DNA of 64,000 nt, taken from Ulota crispa (lineage: Eukaryota; Streptophyta; Bryopsida; Orthotrichales; Orthotrichaceae). The first letter of the stretch is position 1. Each line of letters starts with the position of its first letter. The position numbers and the translations under genes were made by a program. Positions 4,966 to 62,095 of this stretch are shown one piece after another. The notes beneath the pieces are model-generated. The model worked only from the letters and a program-made list of their open reading frames with translations, was not told the origin of the DNA and ran no database searches. The DNA lies in assembly GCA_963920765.1 (NCBI GenBank), contig OY987252.1, forward strand, positions 4,325,966-4,389,965. Direction: 5' to 3'.

Positions 4966-6033
4966 TTGAAGTATGTGGAGTTAGTTGAATGCTTGAGTTA
5001 GTGTGACTTTAGGTAGTAGTGCATGTATATATGTTAGAGTAGGCTAGAGTAGGACAGTCAATTGCAAGGGGCAGTTTCAAAGATTTAATTCCTCCATGAT
5101 TGCTATTTTAATTGAATATGCTTAAGGGTTGAACGTGCTTGATACAGAGTTTTGCGTGATTTGGGTTTATTAGACCTACGTTTTTGCTATTGTAACTAAA
5201 TGTGCTTAAGGATGAACGTGCCTAATATAGAGTTATGTGTGATTTGGGGAATATCAGAGGGTTCACCATGCAATGCACCTCACCAAAGAAGGAATCCCAG
5301 GAAGAATGAAAACTATCTAAACTGTTTAGGGGCCAGCAGGTTAACCAGAGGGAAGCCCCCAAAAATTTACAAATGTTTAGGTGAATTTTGGAGCCTGCGG
5401 GTTTTCAAGAGGGAACTCCTAGAAAAGAGAAAATTAGCAACGTTTGAGTAGTTATTGTCCTTATGCTCACAATAATGAATCTTCAAAAAAATTTGAAATG
5501 TTTGAGTGGTTGTTGTTGTCTTTGTGTTCACAATAGTGAATCCTCAAAAAAGTTAGAAATGTTTGAGTGGTTGTTGTTGTCTTTGTGTTCACAATAATAA
5601 ATCCTCAATAAAATTAGAAATATTTAAGTGGTCTTGTTGCCTCAATTTTTGCAAGGAACCATCAAGACAATTAGAAATGTTTAAGTGCTTTAGGGGAAGG
5701 AGGAGGGAAGAGTAAATATGATATGGATAGCTTCATGATTGTTTTGTTAAACCCTCTGTCCGTCTCCATGAATTTAGTCTAGGCCTCTAGGGTGTTCCAA
5801 TAGTAGCAATGGTGATTACATTTCCTAGAGTAAATAGGTGTCATGATTATTTTATATATAATTATTCACAAAATTCATTGGATTGAAGACCCCAACACTA
5901 TGCAATATGTAGTGGTATGAAATGAATTTGTTTTAGATGCAATTGTCATAAGGGTTAAAACAAAGAAACCACAAATGTGCTTCTTTCTCTATTTAGCAAC
6001 TAGTAGCAAAGGCATTGAAAAGTAAAAGAGTTG
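4966..6033. repeat. Left arm of a 2.1 kb inverted repeat
   Basis: Pairs with 6038-7083 around a 4-base centre (GGCA, 6034-6037). The inner 430 bases are almost identical to the reverse complement of the other arm; I found one mismatch near 5713. Outward the arms diverge slowly. This arm carries an extra internal duplication of about 80 bp (5101-5166 resembling 5187-5250) that the right arm lacks. An 83-codon open frame at 5200-5451 is mirrored in the other arm and has no recognisable motif, so I do not call it a gene. Confidence 0.92.
5456..5690. repeat. 61-bp tandem repeat inside left arm
   Basis: About three and a half units of a 61-bp sequence containing GTTTGAGTGGTTGTTGTTG and TTCACAATA. 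The matching segment of the other arm has one more unit, which accounts for the 61-base offset between outer and inner pairing of the arms. Confidence 0.8.
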
Positions 6034-6037
6034 GGCA

Positions 6038-7083
6038 CAACTCTTTTACTTTTCAATGCCTTTGCTACTAGTTGCTAAATAGAGAAAGAAGCACATTTGT
6101 GGTTTCTTTGTTTTAACCCTTATGACAATTGCATCTAAAACAAATTCATTTCATACCACTACATATTGCATAGTGTTGGGGTCTTCAATCCAATGAATTT
6201 TGTGAATAATTATATATAAAATAATCATGACACCTATTTACTCTAGGAAATGTAATCACCATTGCTACTATTGGAACACCCTAGAGGCCTAGACTAAATT
6301 CATGGAGACGGACAGAGGGTTTAACAAAACAATCATGAAGCTATCCATATCATATTTACCCTTCCCTCCTCCTTCCCCTAAAGCACTTAAACATTTCTAA
6401 TTGTCTTGATGGTTCCTTGCAAAAATTGAGGCAACAAGACCACTTAAATATTTCTAATTTTATTGAGGATTTATTATTGTGAACACAAAGACAACAACAA
6501 CCACTCAAACATTTCTAACTTTTTTGAGGATTCATTATTGTGAACACAAAGACAACAACAACCACTCAAACATTTCTAACTTTTTTGAGGATTCACTATT
6601 GTGAACATAAATACAACAACAACCACTCAAACATTTCTAATTTTTTAAAAGATTCATTATTGTGAGCATAAGGACAATAACTACTCAAACGTTGCTAATT
6701 TTCTCTTTTCTAGGAGTTCCCTCTTGAAAACCCGTAGGCTCCAAAATTCACTTAAACATTTGTAAATTTTTGGGAGCTTCCCTTTGGTTAACCTGCTGGC
6801 CCCTAAACGGTTTAGATAGTTTTCATTCTTCCTGGGATTCCTTCTTTGGTGAGGTGCATTGCATGGTGAACCCTCTGATATTCCCCAAATCACACATAAC
6901 TCTATATCAAGCACATTCACCCTTAAGCACATTTAGTTACAATAACAATCATGGAGGTATTGAACCTCTGCCCCTTGCAATGTGACTATATTATTGTAGC
7001 CTACACTAACATATTTGCATGCACTACTAACTAAAGTCATACTAATTCAAGCAATAGACTAACTTCAAACATTAACATACTAA
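6038..7083. repeat. Right arm of the 2.1 kb inverted repeat
   Basis: Reverse complement of 4966-6033. Pairing sums to 12071 near the centre and to 12132 in the outer part because of the extra 61-bp unit here. Outer sequence around 6990-7060 still matches the left arm with scattered substitutions. A transcript across both arms would fold into a hairpin of about 1 kb. Confidence 0.92.
6412..6680. repeat. 61-bp tandem repeat inside right arm
   Basis: Four to four and a half units, reverse complement of the array at 5456-5690 (CAACAACAACCACTCAAAC in each unit). Confidence 0.8.
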
Positions 7084-13549: not shown

Positions 13550-14570
13550 AATCAAATATTGCTACTATATATCTAGCCTACACAAGTATCCACCTAAAAA
13601 AACAAGAGAATAAGCAAACCTCATAATATCAAAACACTAAGCTCACATCAAAAACTAATTATAAACTTTGAAAAATAAATTACCTCTAAATTTTGCCCCT
13701 AACTAGCCTTTCTAATGTCCATTAAAAAAATGACAATAACCATACCCGCAGATTTCAATACACTAAGTTTGCATGAAAAAATAATTACAAATTCTGACAT
13801 GCAAATTACCTCCAAAATTTGCCCCTAACCAAATCTTCCAAATACCCATTAAAAAACAAGAGAATAAATAAGCATCAAAATCTCAATACACTAAGCTCAT
13901 ATGAAAATCAAAATACAAACTTTGACATCCAAGTTACCTTCAAATACTGCTTGTAAACAACCCTTCAAATATCAATTACATCAACATGATGATAAACAAG
14001 CATCATTACTTCAATACACTAAGCTCACATGAAAAAAAAGAAATAACAAGCTTTGACATCCAAGTCACCTCCAAATATTGCCCCTAAATTGACCTTTAGA
14101 TGTCAATTACAAAAACATGAGGATAAATAAGCATTAGAATCTCACTATGCTAAGCTCACATGAAAAAATAAAAACAAACTCTAAAATAATTCTTACCTCT
14201 AAATACCACCCCTACTCAGCCCTTCTAATATCCATTAAAAAAACATGAGAAAAAGCAAACATCAAAATCTCACTACCCTAGGCTCACTTAAAACACTAAT
14301 TACTAGATCTGACCTCTAAATACTACCCCTAACTAGCCCTTCAAAGTTTGATGAAAAAAACAAAAGAATAAGCAAGCATCAAAACATCATTACACCAAGT
14401 TCACATGAACAAATAATTACAAACTATGACATCCAAATTTTCTCTTCAATCTTCCTATAACCAACCTTTCAAATTTCAATGAAAATCACAAGAGAAAAAG
14501 CAAGCATCAAAGTCTGAATATATTAAGCTCACATGAAATACTAATTACAAAATTTGACATAGATTTTGGG
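13550..14570. repeat. Tandem array, unit about 127 bp
   Basis: Unit starts recur at about 13637, 13769, 13899, 14027, 14150, 14278, 14395 and 14523, each with CTAAGCTCACATGAAA or a close variant, followed by AATTACAAACTTTGACATCC, then TGCCCCTAACTAGCC and AACATGAGAATAAGCAAGC. Seven full units and partial ends. Units differ at roughly one base in six, so the array is old. Confidence 0.88.
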
Positions 14571-17479: not shown

Positions 17480-18750
17480 AACTTGTCCTCACGTTTCATC
17501 TAAATTTTTAACATTTAAGTGTGATATTATTTTAATCAGTTACCATTGTAACGAGTATTATGTATTTTGCCATGAAAATCTTGCAACTCAAAAGAACCAT
17601 TAGGATGAGTTTTTTAGATCTTATATGGTCCAAACCATCTTGTTTGGAATTTTTTAGGGAATTTTTGAAAACGACTATCATATGAAAGAAATAGATCATT
17701 ATCTTTTAACATTTTAAGTTTCATTTTACTATCATAAAACTTTTTTGACAATTCTAAATTGCAACCAAGTTTAAATATGCTGGTGCTCTATCTTCATCTA
17801 ATTTTTCTAGCGTATTTAATCTATGTTCAAGACTTTCTATATCGCTTAGTCTATGATCATTAGCTATTCTCAAAGTGGGTATTTCTAGCTCAATTGGTAG
17901 AATAGAATCTTGGCCATAGACTAGTTGAAAAGGGGTATATTTTGTGGTTACTTTATAGGCAATACGATAAGCCCATAATGCATCAAATACCCTCTCATCC
18001 CAATCTAAATTAGAACCTTGAATTGTCTTAGTAATAATTTTACATAAAATCCCATTTGTTTTTTTAGTTTGTCCATTGGTTCATAGGTGATATGGGGTAG
18101 ATTTTCTATGTTTTATAAAATACTTTTTTGTTAAATGTTCAATAGACAAATTTATAAAATGTGTACTTTGATCACTCGCTAATTCTTTGGACACCCAAAC
18201 CTTGTAATTATGTTTTCATAAAGGAATTTAGCCACTATATTAGCATCACCAGTTTTAGTAGCTTAGGCTTCCGCAAACTTTGTAACATATTCCATAGCCA
18301 CTAGAATGTATCTTTTATGACCTTTGCAACTTGGTGGATTAATGGGGCCAACAAAATCAATTCCCCATTTTTCAAAAGGGGTTTGGGCTAAAATTGGTGT
18401 TAATGGCATTGCCAAAGTGGAAGTAGGTTTATCCATTCTTTGGCATGGGTCACACCTTTTAACAAAATTAGCGGAATCCTCAAAAAGGTTTGGCCACCAA
18501 TAACCAGAATGTAATACTTTATTAGCTATTACAATTCCAGCAAAGTGACCTCCACAACTAGAATCATAACAAGATTTTAGTATGGTTGTTACTTCACTAA
18601 TGTTGATGCATCTGCGCAAAATCCCATCTAAACCTAATTTCAATAATACCCCATCTAATAAGGTATAAGGTCTAGATTTAAAAAGTAAACGTCTTTGTTG
18701 TTTAGGTGTAAAATCCATAGAAAATTCTCTTGTTAAGAGATAATTCATTA
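17480..18750 (-). pseudogene. Integrase domain of the gypsy element
   Basis: Integrates the cDNA copy. The zinc-binding region shows GGHFAG, then LHSGYWWP and FVKRCDPCQR (His-His-Cys-Cys). The core has WGIDFVGPINPPSCKGH with the first catalytic Asp, and ASDQSTHF with the second. The third position, normally Glu in an NGQ.E.TN context, reads NGQTKKTNG, so the catalytic Glu is lost. A stop (HL*TNG) and a frame break near 18240 add to the damage. Downstream, TPFQLVYGQDSILPIELEI is the C-terminal block typical of the Tat lineage. No chromodomain is seen. It is the last gene of the element. Confidence 0.85.
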
Positions 18751-19330
18751 TTTCTGCATATTCAAGTGATATTAAATCAACTTGAAAAAGATTTGCATCC
18801 GAAAAAATATCATCAATTGGTTCACTCCCTAATTCCTCATTAATTCAAAAAAGGTGATCTGCATTATTATGAATTTTCCCAGAGCAAACATTTATGGTAA
18901 GATTAAATTCTTGTAAAAGAAGAACCCACCTAGCAATTTGTCCACTTAATTGGGGTTTATTGACCATATATTTTAATGCATCATGAGCACCATGAAATGT
19001 AAGTTTATAACCCAATACATAATGCCTAAACTTTCAAACTGAAAATATCATACCTAGAGCTTCTCTCTCAGTTATTGAATAATTTTGTTCTACAACATTA
19101 ACCTGTTAACTAGCATAATAAATTAGATGATCTCTTTTTTTATTGTCCTTTTGACTTAAGATACTTCTAATTGCCAAATTGAAAGCATCTACATATATTT
19201 TAAAATTCTTAACCCAATTTGGAGCTACTAATACTAGAGCCTTTGTTAAATTAAGTTTTAAGATTTGAAAGGCCTTAGTACATTTTTTTGTCCAAAATGG
19301 AGGTTCTTCACTCTTTTTCAACAATTGTGT
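18751..19330 (-). pseudogene. RNase H domain of the gypsy element
   Basis: Degrades the RNA strand during reverse transcription. Segments read PFWTKKCTKAFQILK at the connection region, then FKIYVDAFNLAIRSILSQKD, TEREALGMIFSV, KFRHYVLGYKLTFHGAHDAL and GQIARWVLLLQEF, all in family order. Stops at about 19105, 19030 and 18845 interrupt it. It follows the polymerase domain and precedes the integrase zinc region without spacer. Confidence 0.8.
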
Positions 19331-19339
19331 TAAGGATAA

Positions 19340-20357
19340 GGCTATATTTGCATACTTATAAATAAATCAACAATAATAGCCAACATGTCCTAAAAAACCT
19401 TTTACTCTTGTCATTGTATTTAGAGTTGGTAAATCAATTATAAATAGCTACTTTGTCAGGGTCAATTGCTATACCTTCTAAAGAAACTACATGTCCTAAT
19501 AATTTCCCAAAAGGTACAACAAACTGAGATTTAGCTACATTAATTGAAATGCCAAAGTCTTGACACTGTACAAAACATTTTATAAAACAAGAAGCATGAT
19601 CTTTCTTAGAACTAAAAACACAAATCTCATCTAAAAATATTTCAATAAAATTTTCAAGGTGTTTTTGAAAAGTTACGGTCATTATCCTTTGGAATGTCGC
19701 TGGTGCGTTACAAAATTCAAATGGCATGACTCTATAGGCATAAGTTCTCAAATCCATGGTAAATGTAGTCAAGGATTGGTGATCTTTTGCTATTTGGACT
19801 TGATTATAGCTTGAAAATCCATTCCTAATAGAATAACACTCAAACCCAGCTACAGTGTCTAATAGTATATCAGCAAAAGGTAAAGGAAAGTAATCTTTCC
19901 TTGTTACACTACTTAATTTACAAAAATCTTGACAAATTCTTAATTTTCCTTTTTTCTTCAGTACTACCACTATTGGGGATACCCATTCAATATAAGGAAC
20001 AAAAAATATAAATCCACATTCTAATAATCTATCAATTTCTTCTTTAACCATTAAAGAATATTTAGGATTCATACAATCTTGTCTTTGACAAACCAATTTA
20101 GCATCATCTTCTAATATTATTCTATGTTCACAAACTTCAGGTGAAATTCCCTTTAAGTCCTTATAAGTCCAAGCAAAAGCTTCCTTGTTTTTATGAAAGA
20201 AATCTTTCCAATATTTCCATATAGATGGAGTCATTTTGGAAAAGACTTTTATATTTTTAGGATTCTTTTTGCTTCCTACATTCATATCTTGACAAATATC
20301 CCTTAAAGTCCTAATGTTTATAAGGGAAGAATTAGAATCTTCTAATAATTCTTCCAT
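19340..20357 (-). pseudogene. Reverse transcriptase domain of the gypsy element
   Basis: The longest open frame of the window (307 codons, 19434-20357). Motifs in order: WVSPIVVVLKKKGKLRICQD, FCKLSSVTRKDYFPLPFADI, FECYSIRNGFSSYNQVQIAK, TFTMDLRTYAYRVMPFEFCN APATFQRIM, IFLDEICVFSS, and FVVPFGKLLGHVV. Motif A normally has Asp where RNG is seen, and motif C normally has two Asp where DE is seen, so two catalytic aspartates are changed although the frame is open. The frame stops near 19434 and the thumb region continues with breaks. Clearly Ty3/gypsy type. Confidence 0.92.
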
Positions 20358-20799
20358 TTCTTTAATATTAGAATCTAACTAAGGTTCTGGTTCAAAATCT
20401 TCTTCCACTCCAATTGCCAAGACACTAGATTTTTGCCATCATAATATAGCTTCATCTAAGTCTTCACATTGTCTTAGAGGAGAGAAATATTCCCCTAAAT
20501 CTATACATTGGTAAGTCTTAGGATATTGGGATACAATTTAAATATTCTCCTCTTTGTTATCTTCATAATCCGTATCATAGGAATTATTAGAAGTAACTTC
20601 AGATTCTTCATCTTGAGTTTTTCCATGATAATTTATAGGGTACATAGGGAGGACAATTTTATGTTTTCCTCTTCCTACAGTAAGAGCCACTTTCCCCCAA
20701 TCATCTTGTACCTAAACCATATATAACCGAGGTCTATTTAGTAATATTGGATAAGTACAAATGACGTTGGTACTTTGGAATATTACATAGTCTACTTTA

Positions 20800-34429: not shown

Positions 34430-37400
34430 TGACATGTTCACTAGTAGTACTTTGTTGATGTGGACGTTTAGATGGATTGTTGGGACGTTCACCTAAGCAT
34501 GATGAAGTCCGGTTTGAAGTCCTATGCTTTTACATATTCAAAGTTGGTGAGAGATTAGTCAAGCGTGTGCCTATTGACAAAGTTGGTGTAGCAAGATGAA
34601 CCTCAGAAGAAGATGGCCCTGACAAATTTTGAATTGGTGGATTGTCCAATACTGGCTTTTGACATTGCACTCTAATTGAGTCTTGATGTGGAGAGGGCCT
34701 ATCTAGCTCAAGAGTATAAGGGGGCCCTTCAATAGGAGTATTTTCAACAAGTAGTGTTGGTGTTACCACCTCATCATGTTTGCGTCCTCTTTGAACATGT
34801 GTACCATCTGGAACTATTGTGGTGGCCACATCCTCATCAATAGGGTCTAGACTTGGCAAAGTTTGTGCTCCAACGTCCTCAAATTTATTTCCACCACTTG
34901 GTCCAGCAGCCCATGTATTTGGCATCTGTGGTGGCATTCCATTGTGACCGTCGTGGCCTTTGCCATTATTATCTCCTTCATCAAAGTCAAATATGGACTT
35001 GTCAATTACAATACGCCTTTCTCGCCTCCCACCATCTTAAGGAAATGGATCACCATCTTCATTGGAGTCGTCATTATTGGGGTTAGAGAGAACAAACCCA
35101 CGGTCCAGACCATTAGATTCTTTTGTCATGGAGTCTTCTGATACCATGTTTTTGGTATACCACCTTGTTGGATTTGTTGCAACCCTTTCCCTCAAAGTCT
35201 TAGAATTGGCATACATGTAAATCAATTTGTTTGCACGCTCTGATGTCAATCTATTGCGGGCCTTGTTGTGAATGGAGGAGTTCATGCTCCAATTGTGTTC
35301 GCATGATGATGCATAGCACACTTGAGCGAGGATCATTTTGGCAATTGGTGCAAGATTACAAGCACCTGCTCCAAGAAGATCCCACCATTCATAGGGCTCC
35401 AAATTTAAAGTGTGAATGCGTGGGAGTCCACCAAATTGGCCTCGCCCCTCTCCAAAAGTTTGGTACTCAAACAAAACTAAGGCAAACGTTTGGTCTCCAA
35501 CTGACATTTTGCGCAATACTCTCAATATGGCATGTTTTGCTTCATCATGGCCCATTAGTGTGACTTCATCAAGTAAGAAGGGATTCAATAGAGCACTTGC
35601 GTAATGCAGATTTGTTCTCATCATATCCCACTTTGTGTAAAATTTGTCTTCAATGCGACCCGCATAATGTGCCGGTAACAAAAACGGTAAAACTGTCTTC
35701 TCCACGTTCTTCATTACAGGTCATGCCTTCCCCATACATAGATGTTTGCCATCAAACTCTCAAAGGGAAACCAAAACAAGCTCCACCATGCACACAAAGT
35801 TCAAACATGACTTCCAAAAGGCATCTAATTGCACATGTTGTTGAACGGAGTCCGCCCTTTTCCACATTTAACACCATATTCATTAAAATGGGAGATTTGG
35901 GACCTCTCAAAATAATCATGTTGATCTTGACTTAAATCAGCAATTTCCATTAAAATGAGAGTTTCAAGCTGAATTTAACTTGATTTGAGTTAAATTGACA
36001 TAAAACCTTTGAGACTTGCCCTAAAATTGAAAGGTTTTATGTCAAGTTAACTCAAATCAAGTTAAATTGACATAAAACTTTTCAATTTGAGCTAAATTGA
36101 CATTCAAAAAATTGTTGAATTTTCTTTATATTACCTCTCATTTCAAATGGAAAACCCTCATTTCAATGGAAAACTCTCATATTAATGAATATGGTCTTGT
36201 TTCATTTTTTGTCAATTTCCTCAAGTACTCATTCCATTGCGGATCATGGATAGTTGATTCCACAGCTTCCTTTACTTCCACCAACCGCTCAATCATGGGA
36301 AACGTAGTTGCAAAGCGCATCTCATTTGGATTTTTTAGCATGTGATTGGGAGAATGTCAACAAAAGATTGCAAGTGGCATGTGATGCCTACAAATGTAAT
36401 TTACAATGAGCCTTGTTTTCCCCACAATTCTTGTTATCCAATCTTGGTTTCTCCAATCCTCAAATAAATGGTCAAGCACATGCGTTGCACAACCTTGAAA
36501 GTAAATGAGTGGAAATTGTTTGATTATTCAAGCAAAGGTAGCACGCATGCTCTCTATGTTATTTGTGCAAATATATACTACATTAAGCCCCCTCCCCCCA
36601 CCTCTTTGATGAAATCAAGCATACAATTAGCCACATAAGTAGATTATTTGCTTTCACTTGTTGTATCTATCGATCTAAGAAATACCTCTCCACTAGTACA
36701 TGCCAACATGATATTGATCCAAGGCCAATGTGAGACATTGTCCCATCCATTCGAGCATATTGTAACACCATATATATGGATTGGTCCCCTCATCTTCTCT
36801 GCCACCATTGGTACCACTGTGTCCTTTACATATTTGAAGAGCTTTGTATGAAGTGCATGGTAAGCTAGAGGTTTGTACAGAACTCTCACCTTTGATGTTG
36901 CTCTCATTGCATCTACAAAAGCACGGTGCTTTGCTATAGTGAATGAGTTATTAGCTTCATAAAAAAACTTAACCCATTTTTTGTCTAGCATTTGTTTCTT
37001 TGAAGAGTTCATTCCTTCTTGTATAAATAATTGCCTCCAAGGTTGACTGAGGGTTAAACTAGGGCTAGATGCCTCTTACAATCTTATTTGGGAGCATTGT
37101 CTCTTGTAGTGTTTTGCATCTTCATTTGCTGAGATTAAAGCAGTACGCTATTGTTCCCTCTATACCGCAATTGCTGGAGATATTGAAGGCAATGTCACTT
37201 CCACATTATTTTTAGTTTCACCCCAAGAGACAGCAGGTACATGTCCTCCATAATTATAAAACATTGTTTTCACAGCTGCAGTAATTTTGATGCACAACCT
37301 CACGCTAGGGGGTTTATAATTTCCTTTGTACCCCAATTGGAAAAGCAAGCAATCTTCTCAATAACTTATCAAAGTCCCCCAGTAATTGCATGCACTTATC

Positions 37401-39880: not shown

Positions 39881-40437
39881 GTACTACGCAAGCATGTGGA
39901 GCAAAAATTACTAGAATTTCTAGGCTGCCATGTTTCCAATTTGAGTAATTACAAAAAAAACCCAAAAAACAAAACAAAAAATGGCCATTTTTTCTCTATT
40001 CAAGACACTTGAATTGATGAAATTGCATTTTTGGGGAAGTTTGTTTTCTTTCTCCAATGCTTGACCAAAGGATGCCCACTTTGAGAGCATGTGGAGGCAT
40101 AGAATTCACAATTTCCTAGAACCCTTGTACTCATCCATGTAATGCTCTATGATGAACAACTTCATTGATTTGTGGCATGAGATTTGTTTTTTTGGACCCA
40201 AAAAAGTATTGAAACCCCTCAAAATGGTCAAGGTAAACACCTATTTGGGGGCTATTTAAAAATAGTAAAGTAATTTAAAAAAACCCTCAAAAATTACAAA
40301 AGGTCTATAACTATGACATGTACCTTCTTCTGAAATTTCAACTCAAAAGAACTTGCTAAGCAAAAGTTGCAAGCCACAAAGCACCTCCAAAAAGGCAAGG
40401 AGACACAAAATAGTACAAGTGTTTCTTGCAATCACCC
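39881..40437 (-). mobile_element. GGGTGATTGCAAGAA element, copy A (truncated)
   Basis: Reverse orientation. Starts at about 40437 with GGGTGATTGCAAGAA and follows the order of copies B-D: CTCATGCCACAAATCAA, GTTGTTCAT, GCATTACATGGAT, AAAATGGCCATTTTTT. The far end is missing. Noncoding. Confidence 0.7.
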
Positions 40438-41419
40438 ACAACGACCATAAGTATCATAGAAACACATAAAGACTAACATTTAATTATATTTAGAAGTAAT
40501 TTTGTTCTAAGGGTGATCAATCCTATAAAAGAACTTTCATACTTCTTTTTCAACTATGTAGCTTTATCTCTAGTTCCCTATTAAAATCATTTCTTACTAA
40601 GTCCAATTGATTTGATTAGAAAAGTTTTTTTCACTTTCCTTCTTTACAATCATTTAATACAACCACATGTGCATGTTTTGTATATAATCCAACTTTGGAT
40701 TCACATAACCACTTTTAACAATGATGCAAACTCACTTGTAATTCATTGTCAAATTTCCTTGTCTAATCTCCTAGGTCAATCTATACCTTAACTTTCACTC
40801 ATCCAAACTCAATAATGGATAGTACTAAATTAATCTTCATAATCCAGTTGACTATGTTTACCTTCAATCACATTTGATTCTCTTAAGTTATTTTTACAAT
40901 TTACTAATTTATACCACAATCATTATTCAACATTTATTCTACATTCTTTTTATTTAATTTTTATCATGTTCAAATTTATATATTTTTACTATAGATGTCT
41001 TGTCAACTAGACTTTAATGTGGTTCTTTCTTATACATGTCTACAGTCTATTTGACAATGCTTATGTTTCACTATTCTAGGATTGATTTTAAAGAATTACC
41101 AACTTCGTTAAAATCAGTTTTTTAGATTCAATTATATTTATTATAATCTGTTTCATTTTATCATGCTTCCAAAAAGATTTCTATTCTTGTGTTTTTACTT
41201 ATTTGTTCTATCAACTAGACATTTCAAATAGTAGAATTTGTTACATAAACAACAAACAATCAATTCAATACTTCAATTCATACATACAAAGAACAACTAA
41301 AATTAATATCTTTCACTTTGATTCAAAGTTTGCAATTTTACTGGACAAGGTTTGAGAATTTATAACTCATACATTCCTAATAATGTAGTCCATTTGACAT
41401 TGTTCCTTTCTTCTTTATG
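40438..41419. other. No gene seen
   Basis: AT-rich, featureless to inspection. Confidence 0.3.
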
Positions 41420-50647: not shown

Positions 50648-51376
50648 GGTGATTGTAAGAATGGCATGTACTACATTCTGTCCCCCTCACCTTTTGCAAC
50701 TTGTTTTTTGCTTGTAACTTTTACAAAAGAATTCATATTGATTTGTCCTTTTAAAGTAACGTGAAAATGCAAGTTATTGACATTTCGTGATTTTTTGTTG
50801 TTTTTTAAAATTATTTTGCTATTTTTAAGCATCCCCAAATGGGTGTCTATCTTTGCCATTTTGGGAGTTTTTAGTACTATTTTGGGTCCAAATAAGCTTT
50901 TCTAGGGCTATAAATCAGGGATGTTGTTTAGAGAGCATGCTTACGTGCATTTCTAGAAGGGTTTTGCAAAATTATAAATTTCATGGCATCTACATTGTCT
51001 CAAAGTGGGCATCCTATCTCCCTTCATTAGCAAAATACAAAGAAATTCCTTAGCAAAGCAATTGTACCATGTGAATGTGTTTAATGGGTTCTCAAATGGC
51101 TAGTTTTTATTTTATTTTTTTGAATTATTTTACTATTTTCTAAAAAGCAAGAAAGAAATTGGCTTTATATTGGTGAATTTGTTTTGTGCATAACTTTTAG
51201 AATAAAAAGTTTCTAGGTCTAAATTTTGTATGAATATGCTATTTTAAGTGCTTTACAAATTGTTTGGATTTTATTTTATTAAAAAAAAATTATTCCAAAA
51301 GCTCATAGTACTATATAGTGCTACCAATTTTAAGGGTGTTTGAGACAAAATTGGCAAGTCTTTTTTGCAACTACCC
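50648..51376 (+). mobile_element. GGGTGATTGCAAGAA element, copy B
   Basis: 729 bp, noncoding. Starts GGTGATTGTAAGAATGG and ends TTTTTTGCAACTACCC, so the ends form short inverted repeats. The interior follows copies C and D: TTATTGACATTTCGTGAT, TGTCTCAAAGTGGGCAT, AATGGCTAGTTTTTATTTTA, GCATAACTTTTAGAATAAAA, GGGTGTTTGAGACAAAAT. Confidence 0.82.
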
Positions 51377-51467
51377 TTCTACCGGCTTCTACCATCTCTA
51401 GTGTGTTAAAAAACTTCTTGGATTGACTGTCCTTCAAATTCATTGTGCGCGCCACTTTCCTTGCTTT

Positions 51468-52210
51468 CTATGATTTCTCAAACATGAAACAAAAGTACAT
51501 GTAAAACTTGGACCCTGCTTGCCATCCAGCAATGTTTGTGTTTGCCATGAGATCACTCATGTTCCAAGCATTGTAGTCCATGGTGACGCTGAAGTACATC
51601 TCCTCAAACTTCGTTTGCCTGTAAAACGCAATGCAACTTTCATTGGGTGTCTCAATTGAGACAAACCACATATCCTTTACCCATGTTGAACAGTCATTGG
51701 AATTGCTATTCTTTGCCAAGAGTTTCAAGCGGCCTTCTAGATGTTTCTTTTTTGCCGGATTATTGAGGATCCTAGATGTCCAAAGAGCAACGTCCTTCTT
51801 GGTAATGTAATGGACCTCCACTAAAGCATTCCATTTGAGTGATGCGTACCTAATGTATTCCATCTTCTTGGCTAGAAGAAGATATCCACCATAGTGGTTC
51901 ATTAACTCATTCTTCAATATTTGCTCAATCCAAACACAAGAGGCAGCATTTTTAAGTGAAACAATGGCGTTTCCTTTAACTAGGTGCTTTGACCTAATGT
52001 CTTTCATGCATACCTTCTTTGTTTCAACTTGAGACGCCAAATAATTGATGCCCTCCAGGCAAACTCCATATAGCGGCTTGTAATTGAACTCAATTAGCGA
52101 TCTGCAATTTGCATTTTTAGTAAGCACAATTGTCTTGACACCAGTGGGAAGGTATCCTTCAACAAATTGTTCTTTAATCATGATCTAGCGCTCATCATTG
52201 GTGTCATCCT
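51468..52210 (-). pseudogene. Unrecognised 238-codon open frame
   Basis: Second-longest class of open frame in the window. Reading EQFVEGYLPTGVKTIVLTKN, KPLYGVCLEGINYLASQVET, VKGNAIVSLKNAASCVWIEQ, DVALWTSRILNNPAKKKHLE, WVKDMWFVSIETPNESCIAF, and a C-terminal GWQAGSKFYMYFCFMFEKS. Upstream in the same frame DDTNDER is followed by TAG where Trp is likely, so the real start is further 5' and the gene is broken. Balanced composition and Trp/Tyr content look like folded globular protein. No family recognised. It lies on the strand of the 46.6-53.7 kb exon series and may belong to it. Confidence 0.45.
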
Positions 52211-53690: not shown

Positions 53691-54209
53691 GCCTTAGAGA
53701 CTTAAGCTAGGCAAGTGCTTTATGTCTTGCTTCAAATATGTAGACATTTACAAGCAAAATTTAAAACACACTCTGATATTTTCATTGGTTACAATTTGAT
53801 GATTCCATTTTGAGTTAGGCTCTGGCACTTTAGAAATGAACAACGCATGCAAGGATAGGGTATTGCCATCAAAGGATCCCTTGATAGATGGTACCTTTTC
53901 AACCAACAAGAGTCCTAGTTGTTACTAACATGCAAAACGAAGAGCTCAATGCTAGTTATGCTCATTAGGAGATCCCTAAATTCAGTCATATGTCCTACGC
54001 CAACCACGGTCAGCCCATTGCTTTAGCCCATAGTATTATGAAAGTAGTGATGGTAGGATGACACAAAACCATACCAAGAACATAATTTAGTTGCACAAAT
54101 ATAGGTCTACCCATTGAAGGATCCTCCAATGGCCAATTCAATTTTGGCGGATCTAAGATCCAGTTGTATGTTTTCTATAGATTGTCTAAAACTACTTCAA
54201 CTTTTTTAT
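53691..54209. other. Intron-like, with two GGATCC palindromes
   Basis: Palindromes ATCAAAGGATCCCTTGAT (53867-53884) and CATTGAAGGATCCTCCAATG (54112-54131). No gene seen. Confidence 0.45.
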
Positions 54210-54951
54210 GGGTGATTGCAAAAATGACCTATCCTGCATGCTTTCTATCCCTTTCACCTCTTGCAGGTGGTTTTTGGGTCCTATCTTTTACAGTTTTAGT
54301 CATTTTGACCTACAATTTTAGAGTAAGGTGAACATGAATGTTATTGACATTCCGTAATGTTTTTGTTTTTTTATTATTTTACTATTTTTAAGTGGACCCC
54401 AATTGCATGTCTACCTTAGCAATTTTGGTGGTTTTTAATACTATTTTGGATTGGAAAAAGCAAATCTCATGCCACAAATCAAGGAAGTTGTTCATTAAGA
54501 AGCATTACATGGATTTATAGATCTATTTTACAAAACTAAATTTTTTTTTGCCCTACACATTGTCTCAAAGAGGGCATTGTTTCTCCCTCCATTGGTGAAA
54601 GACAAAAACCTTCCTCCAAAAAGAACTTGCATCAGTTCAAGCTAATGAAAGAGATAAAAATTGGCCATTTTTTATTTTATTTTTTTGATTTTTTTTACTA
54701 TTTTCTAAAAAGCAAAAAGGAAATTGTCTTTTTATTGATAATTTTTGTCCCTCTCTTTTTGTGCATAACTTTTAGAATAAAAAATTTCTAGGTTTGAATA
54801 TTTACAAGTATGCTATTTTAAGTGCTTTACAAATTGTCTGTATTTTAATTTATTTGAAAAAAAATTATTTTAAAAGCTCATAGTACTACCTAGTACTACG
54901 AGTTTTAAGGGTGTTTGAGACAAAACTAGCAGGTCATTCTTGCAACTACCC
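54210..54951 (+). mobile_element. GGGTGATTGCAAGAA element, copy C (left limb)
   Basis: 742 bp, starts GGGTGATTGCAAAAATGACC and ends GGTCATTCTTGCAACTACCC, an imperfect terminal inverted repeat. Flanked by TTAT on both sides (54206-54209 and 54952-54955), a candidate 4-bp target duplication. Its first 690 bases are nearly identical to the reverse complement of 55520-56196. Confidence 0.85.
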
Positions 54952-55032
54952 TTATCTGGAGATCCTGTGATGATGAAATCCAATCTAAGCGTTCCCAATA
55001 TGCCTCTATGGAGGGATACCCCGATGAATAAA

Positions 55033-56196
55033 TGCAAGAATGACCTGCTGGTTTTGTCTCAAACACCCTTAAAATTGGTAATACTAGGTATAGTGCGTGC
55101 CACCATAAACCAACAAACATTTGGTCACAAAATGTCAAATAGTGGTCAACTTTGGGTGATATCACCATCTTTTTGACAAATGATAATTCCAATTTGTGTT
55201 TGTAACTTTTTTCTTAAAATCTCCTTGTTTGAAGTTATGAATAGTTTTAGGTTATAAAGAGACTTAAATTACAAGAAGCTTCAACCTATTGAAGGCTATT
55301 ATAGCAAAAAACAAGAAATATCTAAAAGCCATATGAACTATTCATAACAACCCTCAATAATTTGAAACTCTTCATAACTTCAAGCAAGGAGATCTTAGGA
55401 AAAAAGTTACAAAAACAAATTGGAATTATCAATTGTCAAAAAGATGGTGATATCACCTAAACTTGACCACTATTTGACATTTTGTGGCCAAATGTTTGTT
55501 GGTTTATGGTGGCACACACTACAGTACTATGAGCTTTTAAAATAATTTTTTTTCAAATAAATTAAAATACAGACAATTTGTAAAGCACTTAAAATAGCAT
55601 ACTTGTAAATATTCAAACCTAGAAATTTTTTATTCTAAAAGTTATGCACAAAAAGAGAGGGACAAAAATTATCAATAAAAAGACAATTTCCTTTTTGCTT
55701 TTTAGAAAATAGTAAAAAAAATCAAAAAAATAAAATAAAAAATGGCCAATTTTTATCTCTTTCATTAGCTTGAACTGATGCAAGTTCTTTTTGGAGGAAG
55801 GTTTTTGTCTTTCACCAATGGAGGGAGAAACAATGCCCTCTTTGAGACAATGTGTAGGGCAAAAAAAAATTTAGTTTTGTAAAATAGATCTGTAAATCCA
55901 TGTAATGCTTCTTAATGAACAACTTCCTTGATTTGTGGCATGAGATTTGCTTTTTCCAATCCAAAATAGTATTAAAAACCACCAAAATTGCTAAGGTAGA
56001 CATGCAATTGGGGTCCACTTAAAAATAGTAAAATAATAAAAAAACAAAAACATTACGGAATGTCAATAACATTCATGTTCACCTTACTCTAAAATTGTAG
56101 GTCAAAATGACTAAAACCGCAAAAGATAGGATCCAAAACCACCCGTAAGAGGTGAAGGGGACAAAAAGCATGACAGTTCTTTCTTGCAATCACCCC
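55033..56196 (-). mobile_element. GGGTGATTGCAAGAA element, copy D (right limb), with an insertion
   Basis: Reverse-oriented copy, starting at 56196 with GGGTGATTGCAAGAA and ending at 55033 with GGTCATTCTTGCA; the last few bases of the terminus are missing. Interrupted at 55091-55521 by another foldback element. Together with copy C it makes a large inverted repeat around 54952-55032. Confidence 0.85.
55091..55521. mobile_element. 431-bp foldback element nested in copy D
   Basis: Begins TAGTGCGTGCCACCATAAAC and, on the other strand, TAGTGTGTGCCACCATAAAC. Arms of about 160 bp (to ~55250 and from ~55364) pair almost perfectly, through CATTTTGTGACCAAATGTTT-like and GGTGATATCACC sequence, with a loop of about 113 bases. 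Inserted at AGTACT in copy D. Class unknown. Confidence 0.85.
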
Positions 56197-56544: not shown

Positions 56545-56920
56545 CTAATCCATTGTGCTTTGCAAGTTTGGTTCATTGCATTGTATATTTAAATTGAGAC
56601 TATACATGTAGATTTTGTATGGCACTAATGCAAGGTTAACTTGCGGCAAATCCCAATTAGGAATTGTCTTGCTTGGTAATGCCAATGATCCTGCCATTAT
56701 CAAAAAGTTGACTACAGCACCCCTTGAAATGTGGAAATCCCGTAGCAACTTTGTGGGTTTAGTATAGTTCTGCACATCACACCTTACACGGTACTCAAAA
56801 TTGTTGTGTACAATTCGAGGTTCTTCACTTGTACTTGGAGTCAACCTCACCTTTGCTCCATTTGGGATGAACAAAGACAATGTCATATGGATCAATGCAA
56901 TTCTACTATTCAAAACCCAA
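56545..56920 (-). pseudogene. Unrecognised exon-like open frame
   Basis: A 122-codon frame: ALIHMTLSLFIPNGAKVRLT, NNFEYRVRCDVQNYTKPTKL, RDFHISRGAVVNFLIMAGSL and ALPSKTIPNWDLPQVNLALV. It looks like genuine beta-rich protein but I do not recognise a family. AG precedes it near 56918 and a GATC palindrome follows it directly, as with other exons of this region. Probably the most upstream exon of the minus-strand gene series in the window. Confidence 0.4.
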
Positions 56921-57561
56921 TCCCTAATTATAAACTCTTTTTAGTTGAGAATGACAATTATAGAGCAGCAAATTTATTCAAAGTCATTGTAATAGCTGGC
57001 TAAAATAATGATACATTTGATTGAACAAAATTGATCAAATATAATGAATGAAACTATTGAATTAAGCAATCACTCTATCACTGGGAATGTAGAAATTACG
57101 CAAAATTGCACCTAATATGCAATTCTAGCAATTAAACTCTGCGATGCACAACTCCAAGCGGCCTCTTGCCTTGGATACAACTTTGTTATCTATTAGTTGT
57201 TGACTAATAGCCCAAGTGCATTGTTTGTGTTCACTTGCAATGCCTTGCAACTGGTTTAGGAGATACCAGCCCTATATGAGCTAAGCAGAACTAAAGGTTA
57301 GTGAGTCGCTCCTTTGCAATACAAAGGGTGCCGCAACAAACTTGTGGACCCAAAACAAGTCCCCTCAAAAACATTCAATTTTTGCATGTTCTCATTATCA
57401 ACAACATCAAAAACAATTCTAAGTGTAACTGCTGCAAACATCAAAACTTCAATACGGCATTGGGAAATCGATTCATCATTGAAAACTGAGGAATCTAAAC
57501 TGACAATGCAAAGTCAATTCTGCAAATGTATATGTACCTCCTACAAAAGCTTGGTGCCGGC
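56921..57561. other. No gene seen
   Basis: AT-rich; overlapping short frames at 57300-57630 lack motifs. Confidence 0.3.
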
Positions 57562-60056: not shown

Positions 60057-62095
60057 CTATTCTATCCTTTGTCTATTAGTGATAATCCTCTTATGGCGCT
60101 TTGCTCTTGGGTCTTGCAAATCTGAATCCACAAGAGGATTGGTGGGAATTCTTCTACCTCCAATTCTTGCAAATGCTTGCGTAGAGTTGGTATTATCTAC
60201 AAGGTCATTGTCAAGAAATGGAAGCACCTCCTCTGCTGGCCATAGTCCTCCAATTCCCCAATTGGAACGTGTGTTACTTCTACTTGACAAAGGGAGCCTA
60301 GCATTTCTTCTTCTTCCTCTAGTATGGTTTGCACCATATTCTCCCATAGCAAAAGTTGGTTGGATTGGAGGGGTAAAAATCTCCACATTGTTTCCCAATG
60401 CCACCAAAGCATGGCCTATTGTCCTGACACTGCGATTAACAGTTGTTACCGATTGCCTAAATGTTGTTGTAGGAGCATTAGGTATTACATCCACGGATTG
60501 AGATGCACTAGCGTGACCATGACCTCCAACTGCAGGTATATCAAGTCTTGTTATGTTACCAGGTATTGGTGATTGGGAAACGATTGGGTCTCTACTTGTT
60601 TGGGTGGTGGAGTGCCATGTACCTTCAAGTTGTTGTTGTACAGATGGAGTGACATTTCCTCCTCTTGTGGTTGTAGTACATGTACTACCACAGGCTATTA
60701 GTCGCCATATTTGGAGGATGTGATCCAGGAGGGCTTGGCACTTGAGATCCACCACATTCTAGAACAGCAATTTCAATGTTTTGGAGTGTTGCTACTTCCA
60801 TATTCCCATGTTGTACATTAATCTCTTAAACTTTGCCACTGTCAGAATTGAAATTCCCATGTGTAAATTGATTTATTGTATTGGCGCTGTCATTATTCCT
60901 AGGCTCTTGAATTGCAGGCACAGCTGATCCACTAGGATTGTTGACAGCATCACAGTCGTCGTTGTCATCAATCATTGAACCATGGCTTGGAGCAAGACTC
61001 CAACAATCAAGATCAATTTCTCCATTGCTACTATCAAAGTCATATTCATTTGTTCCATTCTTGTAATATAATTGTGTTTATCAAAAATCATCACCATCTT
61101 CCTGTCATAAATTGCAATGATTAAATGGGTGTGGCAAATTTGTGTCAAGATTGTCATCTAATGCATTTTGCTCAAAGACTTCGTCATTGTGAACAATGTC
61201 AACAATTGGTGCCCTCACAAATGGTGCTGGAGTTGGACCTACTTTGTCATCTTTCGAATCCTTTGATTGAATATTCTTCTCATACCATACAGCTAGATTT
61301 GCCCCAGGTTTCTGACAAAGCATTTTGCTATTGGTATAAATGTATACTAAATCTTCTGCTTTCTCCACTGTGAGGTGGTTGCAAGATCTATTATGAACAA
61401 ATGAGTACATACTCCAATTTTGTTCACAAAAGGATGCAGAGCACGTTAGGGACAACACACACTTTGCAACTTTTGACAGGGCCACATCTGCAATTTGATG
61501 CCACCATAACTGAGGCTGCATTTTGTTGCCTTCTATTTTTGGTGTCATCTGAGCATAATATGGACCACTTTGTTCTTCATACTGTGTCAATTCAAATAAT
61601 ACGGTATCATATTGTATACCTAACACTCCTTCCATTTTGCAAACTACTCCATACAAGGCGACAAGGGCGATATTTTGTTCTCTATTGGTAGCGACGTCTT
61701 TCAAGTACGGATTTAAATATGCTGCAGCATAATGCAAATCTTCAAACATCATACTCCACCTGATATTAAAACCATCCTCTAACATAGATGCAATGCGATT
61801 AGGGAGTCGGAAAGGAGAATCCCTCAAAGAGAACTCATGTCTTTTAAGATTTTTTATTGTCAACCACGCTTTGCCCATGGTTGGCTCTCTTCCATCAAAA
61901 ACTTATAGCGCTCTTAGAACGTCCTCTACAATGTGAACAAAATTATGGCAACAATTCCAAAAGCTTTGATCTTCAATGGCATCTTGCACAAGCATTATTG
62001 TAGTAGGTGGCCTTGTTTGGCTATGCCTAGGCGCTCTACTCTTGCTAGCAAAGAATTGTATGACATTTTGGCGCATTAACAAGAATTAAACTTTT
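60057..62095 (-). pseudogene. hAT transposase, copy 2, C-terminal part
   Basis: Minus-strand reading from about 62085: TTIMLVQDAIEDQSFWNCCH with NFVHIVEDVLRAL, a stop, then an open frame 61105-61878 with GKAWLTIKNLKRHEFSLRDS, EDLHYAAAYLNPYLKDVATN, LWWHQIADVALSKVAKCVLS, and the dimerisation motif LTCSASFCEQNWSMYSFVHN RSCNHLTVEKAEDLVYIYTN. A Thr/Ser/Pro-rich tail follows (60057-60755, with RTIGHALVALGNN and a basic end PRAKRHKRIITNRQ). Cys-Glu-Gln-Asn-Trp replaces the usual C-E-R-N-W. The N-terminal part lies beyond an inserted element at 63672 and onward. Distant relative of copy 1. Confidence 0.88.

Follow-up and report, generated by a model that had tools for sequence, protein, structure and literature searches.

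Probable gene conversion between two old, inverted transposon insertions at a nested foldback element

Results

Architecture and predicted fold of the locus

The locus at 54210-56196 lies within a window of 64,000 nucleotides (the whole stretch of DNA that was analysed; G000:C11:4325966-4389965), taken from a 274.8-Mb assembly of 157 contigs in which contig C11 measures 6.3 Mb. Two copies of a single 742-bp element, termed C (54210-54951, plus strand) and D (56195-55033, minus strand), are arranged there in opposite orientation with 81 bp between them. As a preliminary description of this DNA had proposed, a third element is nested in one of the two, namely D, which it interrupts at a TA. The following features were assigned.

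54206-54209, no strand: left target-site duplication of C, TTAT (read from the sequence)
54210-54951, plus: copy C, assigned as a 742-bp non-autonomous TIR transposon with intact ends GGGTGATTGC...GCAACTACCC (alignment to 39 other genomic copies)
54293-54886, plus: putative 594-bp conversion tract of C, with a single mismatch to D (sequence comparison)
54952-54955, no strand: right target-site duplication of C, TTAT (read from the sequence)
54956-55032, no strand: 77-bp spacer from the duplication of C to D, host sequence that lacks symmetry and is matched by the paralogous stretch on contig C6
55033-55090, minus: inner piece of copy D, apparently unconverted, differing from C at 4 of 58 sites (alignment)
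55089-55090, no strand: TA target duplication of the foldback element, inner side
55091-55521, no strand: foldback element of 431 bp, arms of 165 bp that are 92% complementary, TA-duplicating, many copies
55522-55523, no strand: target duplication of the foldback element, outer side, now CA rather than TA (read from the sequence)
55522-56195, minus: outer piece of copy D, comprising the tract and an apparently unconverted outer end (alignment)
55524-56117, minus: putative 594-bp conversion tract of D, with a single mismatch to C (sequence comparison)

In a BLAST comparison of this region with the whole window, the outer arms (54210-54887 with 56195-55523 on the minus strand) aligned at 97.3% identity over 678 columns, and the ungapped arms, 54272-54887 and 55523-56138, extend over 616 nt at 99%. 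The near identity previously claimed for outer arms of about 690 bp is therefore correct overall but is not uniform, since the differences sit at the ends of the element. Between the outer arms, a first inner hairpin is formed by 54887-54944 and 55033-55090 (58 nt, 93%), close to the position of about 54897-55085 that had been expected for it. The arms of the second, 55091-55255 and 55357-55521 (165 nt, 92%), belong to the foldback element, the boundaries of which had been placed exactly. When all 1987 nt were folded with DNA parameters, the outer stem was predicted to comprise 15 + 646 bp and to meet two inner stems (55 and 151 bp) at a single junction, such that the strand would adopt the three-way "T" with a long stem that was originally suggested. 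For the inner 636 nt, a folding energy of -216.5 kcal/mol was obtained, compared with -56.8 (sd 4.6) in 20 shuffles (z = -34.8). Two further copies of the same family, A (50648-51378, plus strand) and B (39953-40441, minus strand), are present in the window, and the identities of 75.0% (A-C), 71.5% (B-D) and 68.6% (A-B) bear out the earlier remark that copies A and B are far less alike than the arms.

The 742-bp element family

A first search for the family yielded 2379 candidates, 40 of which were scored. Allowing for up to one mismatch, the right-end motif was found at 443 genomic places, compared with 0 for the reversed control. Target duplications of 4 bp were identical in 20 of the 37 copies that could be delimited (among 39), where 0.98 would be expected with shuffled partners. 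Judged by its inverted ends, 4-bp duplications and many copies, the family is assigned as a MITE-like, non-autonomous TIR transposon. No open frame of apparent importance was found for the element, on the basis that the two nearest ORFs (51468-52184 and 56545-56940) gave no Pfam match at E 0.01 in a scan that took in 10 of the 32 listed ORFs of the window.

At 54235-54241, C reads TGC-A-TGC, with four additional bases that are absent from the 39 aligned copies. One of the other copies, L052, has a CACTA-like insert of 210 bp flanked by TGC on either side at this point, and the sequence in C looks like an excision footprint.

Step in divergence along C and D

C and D, aligned together with 39 further copies, were found to differ at 13 of 87 sites over element positions 1-92, at 1 of 585 over positions 93-677 and at 4 of 58 over positions 678-735; at its inner end, D stops 7 bp short of the element terminus. 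Within the tract, C is on average 12.5% from the other copies (minimum 10.6%), and among 820 pairs the C-D distance (1/585) was the lowest, the next being 6.9%. By contrast, the ends taken on their own differ at 17 of 143 sites (11.9%), compared with a mean of 11.3% for 780 pairs, 57% of which are closer than C and D. This distance is ordinary for the family and resembles that between random members. The longest difference-free run was 368 for C and D, and 103 for the next of the 820 pairs. When 21 differences were placed randomly, none of 100,000 trials reached a 594-long run with one difference or fewer (longest, 427). Eleven states in the tract are common to C and D and absent from the 39 other copies, and no such state occurs in the ends. 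The pair thus displays an internal tract of low divergence between ends of family-typical distance, the pattern by which gene conversion is recognised.

Phylogenetic analysis of the tract placed C and D as sisters (100/100). With the ends (144 columns), C and D stood apart in the free tree, a tree holding them together scored a likelihood 2.35 above the free tree, and sisterhood was not rejected by an AU test (p = 0.555). Given that 144 columns hold little signal, the AU test is undecisive here, and because it left sisterhood of C and D standing, the ends are taken to show just a family-typical distance. The argument for conversion rests on the step in divergence, the empty paralogous stretch described below and the target duplications, rather than on the tree of the ends.

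An empty paralogous stretch

A query that combined both flanks with the spacer was searched in the genome and, besides itself, gave one match, on contig C6. This paralogous stretch is identical to the query at 619 of 956 columns (65%) and crosses both insertion points with neither copy present. At the insertion point of C, the alignment contains TAT once; at that of D, there is an 11-base gap, and the exact target of D is thus not fixed by the comparison. Given that C retains TTAT on its two sides, the flanks of C and D appear not to have been exchanged. The inner terminus of D and its duplication have been lost, and its outer side ends at the element's own terminus, with flanks that differ from those of C. 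Taken together, the empty stretch and the TTAT duplications of C argue that the two copies are of independent origin.

The foldback element nested in D

The search for the foldback family produced 680 candidates, 40 of which were scored. Of the 11 relatives examined, 10 have TA on either side; the window copy has TA on one side and CA on the other. The TA target suggests a Tc1/mariner-like family, TA alone being no proof of membership. Compared with a consensus of the 11 relatives, the window copy differs at 32 of 429 sites (the relatives at 16-27 of 423-430), and 14 of its states are found in none of them. Set against the single difference in the 594 bp of the tract, these values suggest that the foldback insertion probably long predates the conversion, unless the element came from an unsampled divergent source. 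The CA at 55522-55523 is the first difference from C on that side of the tract, and the inner end of the tract in D (55524) directly adjoins this target duplication.

Other close pairs of the family

Pairs were surveyed by eye from the right-end motif matches (100 of the 443 places) and from two further patterns (100 of 103 and 100 of 151 matches). Copies that lack an exact right end, D among them, escape this approach, and the pairs are too few for a rate. Among the matches listed, at least four pairs are closer than 5 kb, two inverted (L073 and L074) and two direct (L075 and L076). In L074 (contig C2, 36869700-36874300), with ∼2.65 kb between the copies, a difference-free run of 142 bp was observed, compared with a maximum of 87 among 20 other pairs sampled from its subfamily, and 0 of 75 sites differ where those 20 pairs show 7-16 differences, which suggests that L074 holds a shorter conversion tract. 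No long tract was seen in L073, with copies ∼4.2 kb apart (longest run with one difference or fewer, 87), and none in L076, composed of two different subfamilies at 73.9% identity (longest run, 34). L075 (contig C2, 16189800-16192200) is an exact tandem duplication of 983 bp that includes an element copy and flanks.

Discussion

The data are best accounted for by gene conversion, without crossover, between two old insertions of independent origin, with a tract that the foldback insert would have bounded or started; we put the probability of this reading at roughly 0.9. A duplicated stretch of host DNA would have received C and D as separate insertions that face opposite ways with 81 bp between them, and the foldback element would later have entered D at a TA. 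A much later, non-crossover event of homology-directed copying (non-allelic gene conversion), whether within a chromatid, between sisters or via fork template switching, would have overwritten ∼594 bp of one copy with the sequence of the other and thereby made an imperfect inverted repeat of roughly 88% identity nearly perfect. The tract would have halted at the foldback insert on the inner side and ∼80 bp within the outer terminus. The sequences themselves show the separate insertion sites, the step in divergence, the matching duplications of C and the position of the tract edge at the insert. The mechanism and the order of these events are what we infer, as is the function of the insert as boundary or initiator, given that the tract stops at the target duplication of an old-looking foldback element. 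Copying that stopped at the 431-bp heterology would be the simplest view of the inner edge. If change has been clock-like, the distances of 0.17% in the tract and 11.9% at the ends would place the conversion in about the final 1-2% of the period over which the copies have been separate.

Candidate clues to donor and recipient did not discriminate between the copies. Distances from the consensus were 48 (C) and 49 (D) of 583 in the tract, 7/88 (C) and 6/87 (D) at the left end, and 3/65 (C) and 5/58 (D) at the right end. L052 was likewise set aside as a clue to direction, its tract (64/581 from C) being no closer than others.

Two explanations had been offered in the preliminary description, of which gene conversion is supported by the present data. 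The other, a recent inverted duplication of one copy with arms identical by origin, would explain inverted arms that are 97.3% identical overall, and the AU test on the ends leaves C-D sisterhood standing; however, identity is limited to 594 bp, with 13/87 differences at the outer ends and 4/58 at the inner ends, the flanks show no duplication, C carries TTAT of its own and the empty paralog spans both sites, so this origin can hardly be entertained. Long inverted repeats are hard to assemble, and the arms might in principle have been made alike by an assembly or polishing artefact, but this is most improbable for a locus with unique outer flanks and middle, private differences at both ends of each copy and a 431-bp insert in D alone. 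A foreign copy is not likely to have been pasted in, because the nearest other copies are at least 10.6% away in the tract, and a simple foldback artefact is a misfit, given unlike outer flanks, an asymmetric 81-bp middle and differences that lie only at the ends.

A more specific proposal is that the foldback element was extruded as a hairpin, leading to a break or fork stall and to one-sided conversion outward into D (or of D into C). The tract begins exactly beside 55522-55523 and leaves out the 58 bp beyond the foldback, and part of one report describes how inverted Alu repeats in yeast yield hairpin-capped breaks that are opened by Mre11 and Sae2 (PMC3855049). Against this, a large heterology would equally halt a tract begun elsewhere, the foldback element was not found in L074, the other apparently converted pair, within the stretch searched, and a single case does not separate a boundary role from a starter role; initiation by the foldback is considered possible but rather unlikely. 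Doubtful, too, is its extension, in which nested foldbacks would start conversion and so periodically restore neighbouring inverted transposon pairs to long near-perfect hairpins. As a putative functional hairpin locus, transcribed and diced to small RNAs that silence the family, with conversion kept by selection, the pair would give a transcript with a predicted stem of ∼646 bp (DNA parameters), and, of the 574 21-mers in the tract, 218 have an exact match in one or more of the 39 other copies; yet the average other copy has only ∼50 of the 574, and the window matched no conserved RNA family in Rfam at the gathering threshold, making such a function a very distant prospect.

We regard the C-D pair, read as the product of conversion, as an outcome of a known repair process and not as an element of a new type. 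Neighbouring transposon copies are already known to undergo conversion, and the present case is unusually clean, with a suggestive junction. According to portions of two reports, neighbouring Alu copies undergo more conversion when they lie within about 10 kb of each other, and there, as here, a tract between neighbouring dispersed copies is far closer than the family norm (PMC6598467; PMC8230782); unlike those cases, the copies described here belong to a plant DNA transposon, are inverted and only 81 bp apart, and have a tract edge at a nested foldback. Inverted arms are also homogenised, mostly without crossover, in human Y palindromes, where part of one study gives 56 arm-to-arm conversions versus 3 inversions, in arms of many kb that are >99.9% alike and derive from large inverted repeats, with a mean tract of 2068 bp (PMC3723533). 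Here, by contrast, there are two 742-bp transposon insertions and one ∼594-bp tract. Closely spaced inverted repeats able to extrude hairpins are common to this locus and to the inverted Alu pairs, as that report in part presents them, but in yeast breakage was measured, and what exists here is a sequence trace of copying (PMC3855049). A literature search that covered few subscription journals found, among the titles listed, none on inverted MITE-type copies of a plant converting one another. In maize, Mu killer is an inverted transposon duplication, the hairpin RNA of which silences its own family. The inverted transposon arms of C and D could similarly give hairpin RNA, although Mu killer silences its family whereas the C-D unit, derived from two insertions, is known from its sequence alone.

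One consequence is that divergence between transposon copies need not date insertion: the arms of C and D mislead on age, because they look very young though both insertions would be old. The pair would provide a clean, step-dated example, from a plant, of conversion acting on inverted transposon copies, and it gives a concrete hypothesis, that nested foldback elements bound or start conversion tracts. Transcription of the repaired arms, if it occurs, would make them an efficient source of double-stranded RNA.

Other features of the window and genome

No tRNA was found in the window with bacterial settings. A degenerate tandem array with a period of ∼128 bp and 7.6 copies occupies 13597-14560, and 18263-20378 contains retroelement pieces with Pfam RVT_1 and Integrase_H2C2, which we take to be Ty3-like. 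hAT C-terminal dimerisation domains were detected at 35037-35720, above the Pfam cut-off, and at 61105-61902, below it. Elsewhere in the genome, 56 matches to light-harvesting proteins were obtained, including a gene cluster at G000:C4:21391382-21499621 with several tied best scores; the best solved-structure matches of one such protein include 8htu and 7xqp, which are moss structures. The light-harvesting matches mark the genome as that of a photosynthetic plant, probably a moss. Finally, a near-perfect palindrome of ∼2.1 kb, almost without a spacer, is located at 4976-7067 with its centre near 6036. Its inner part is nearly identical and its outer ends have diverged, and related inverted structures occur on contigs C1, C9 and C11.
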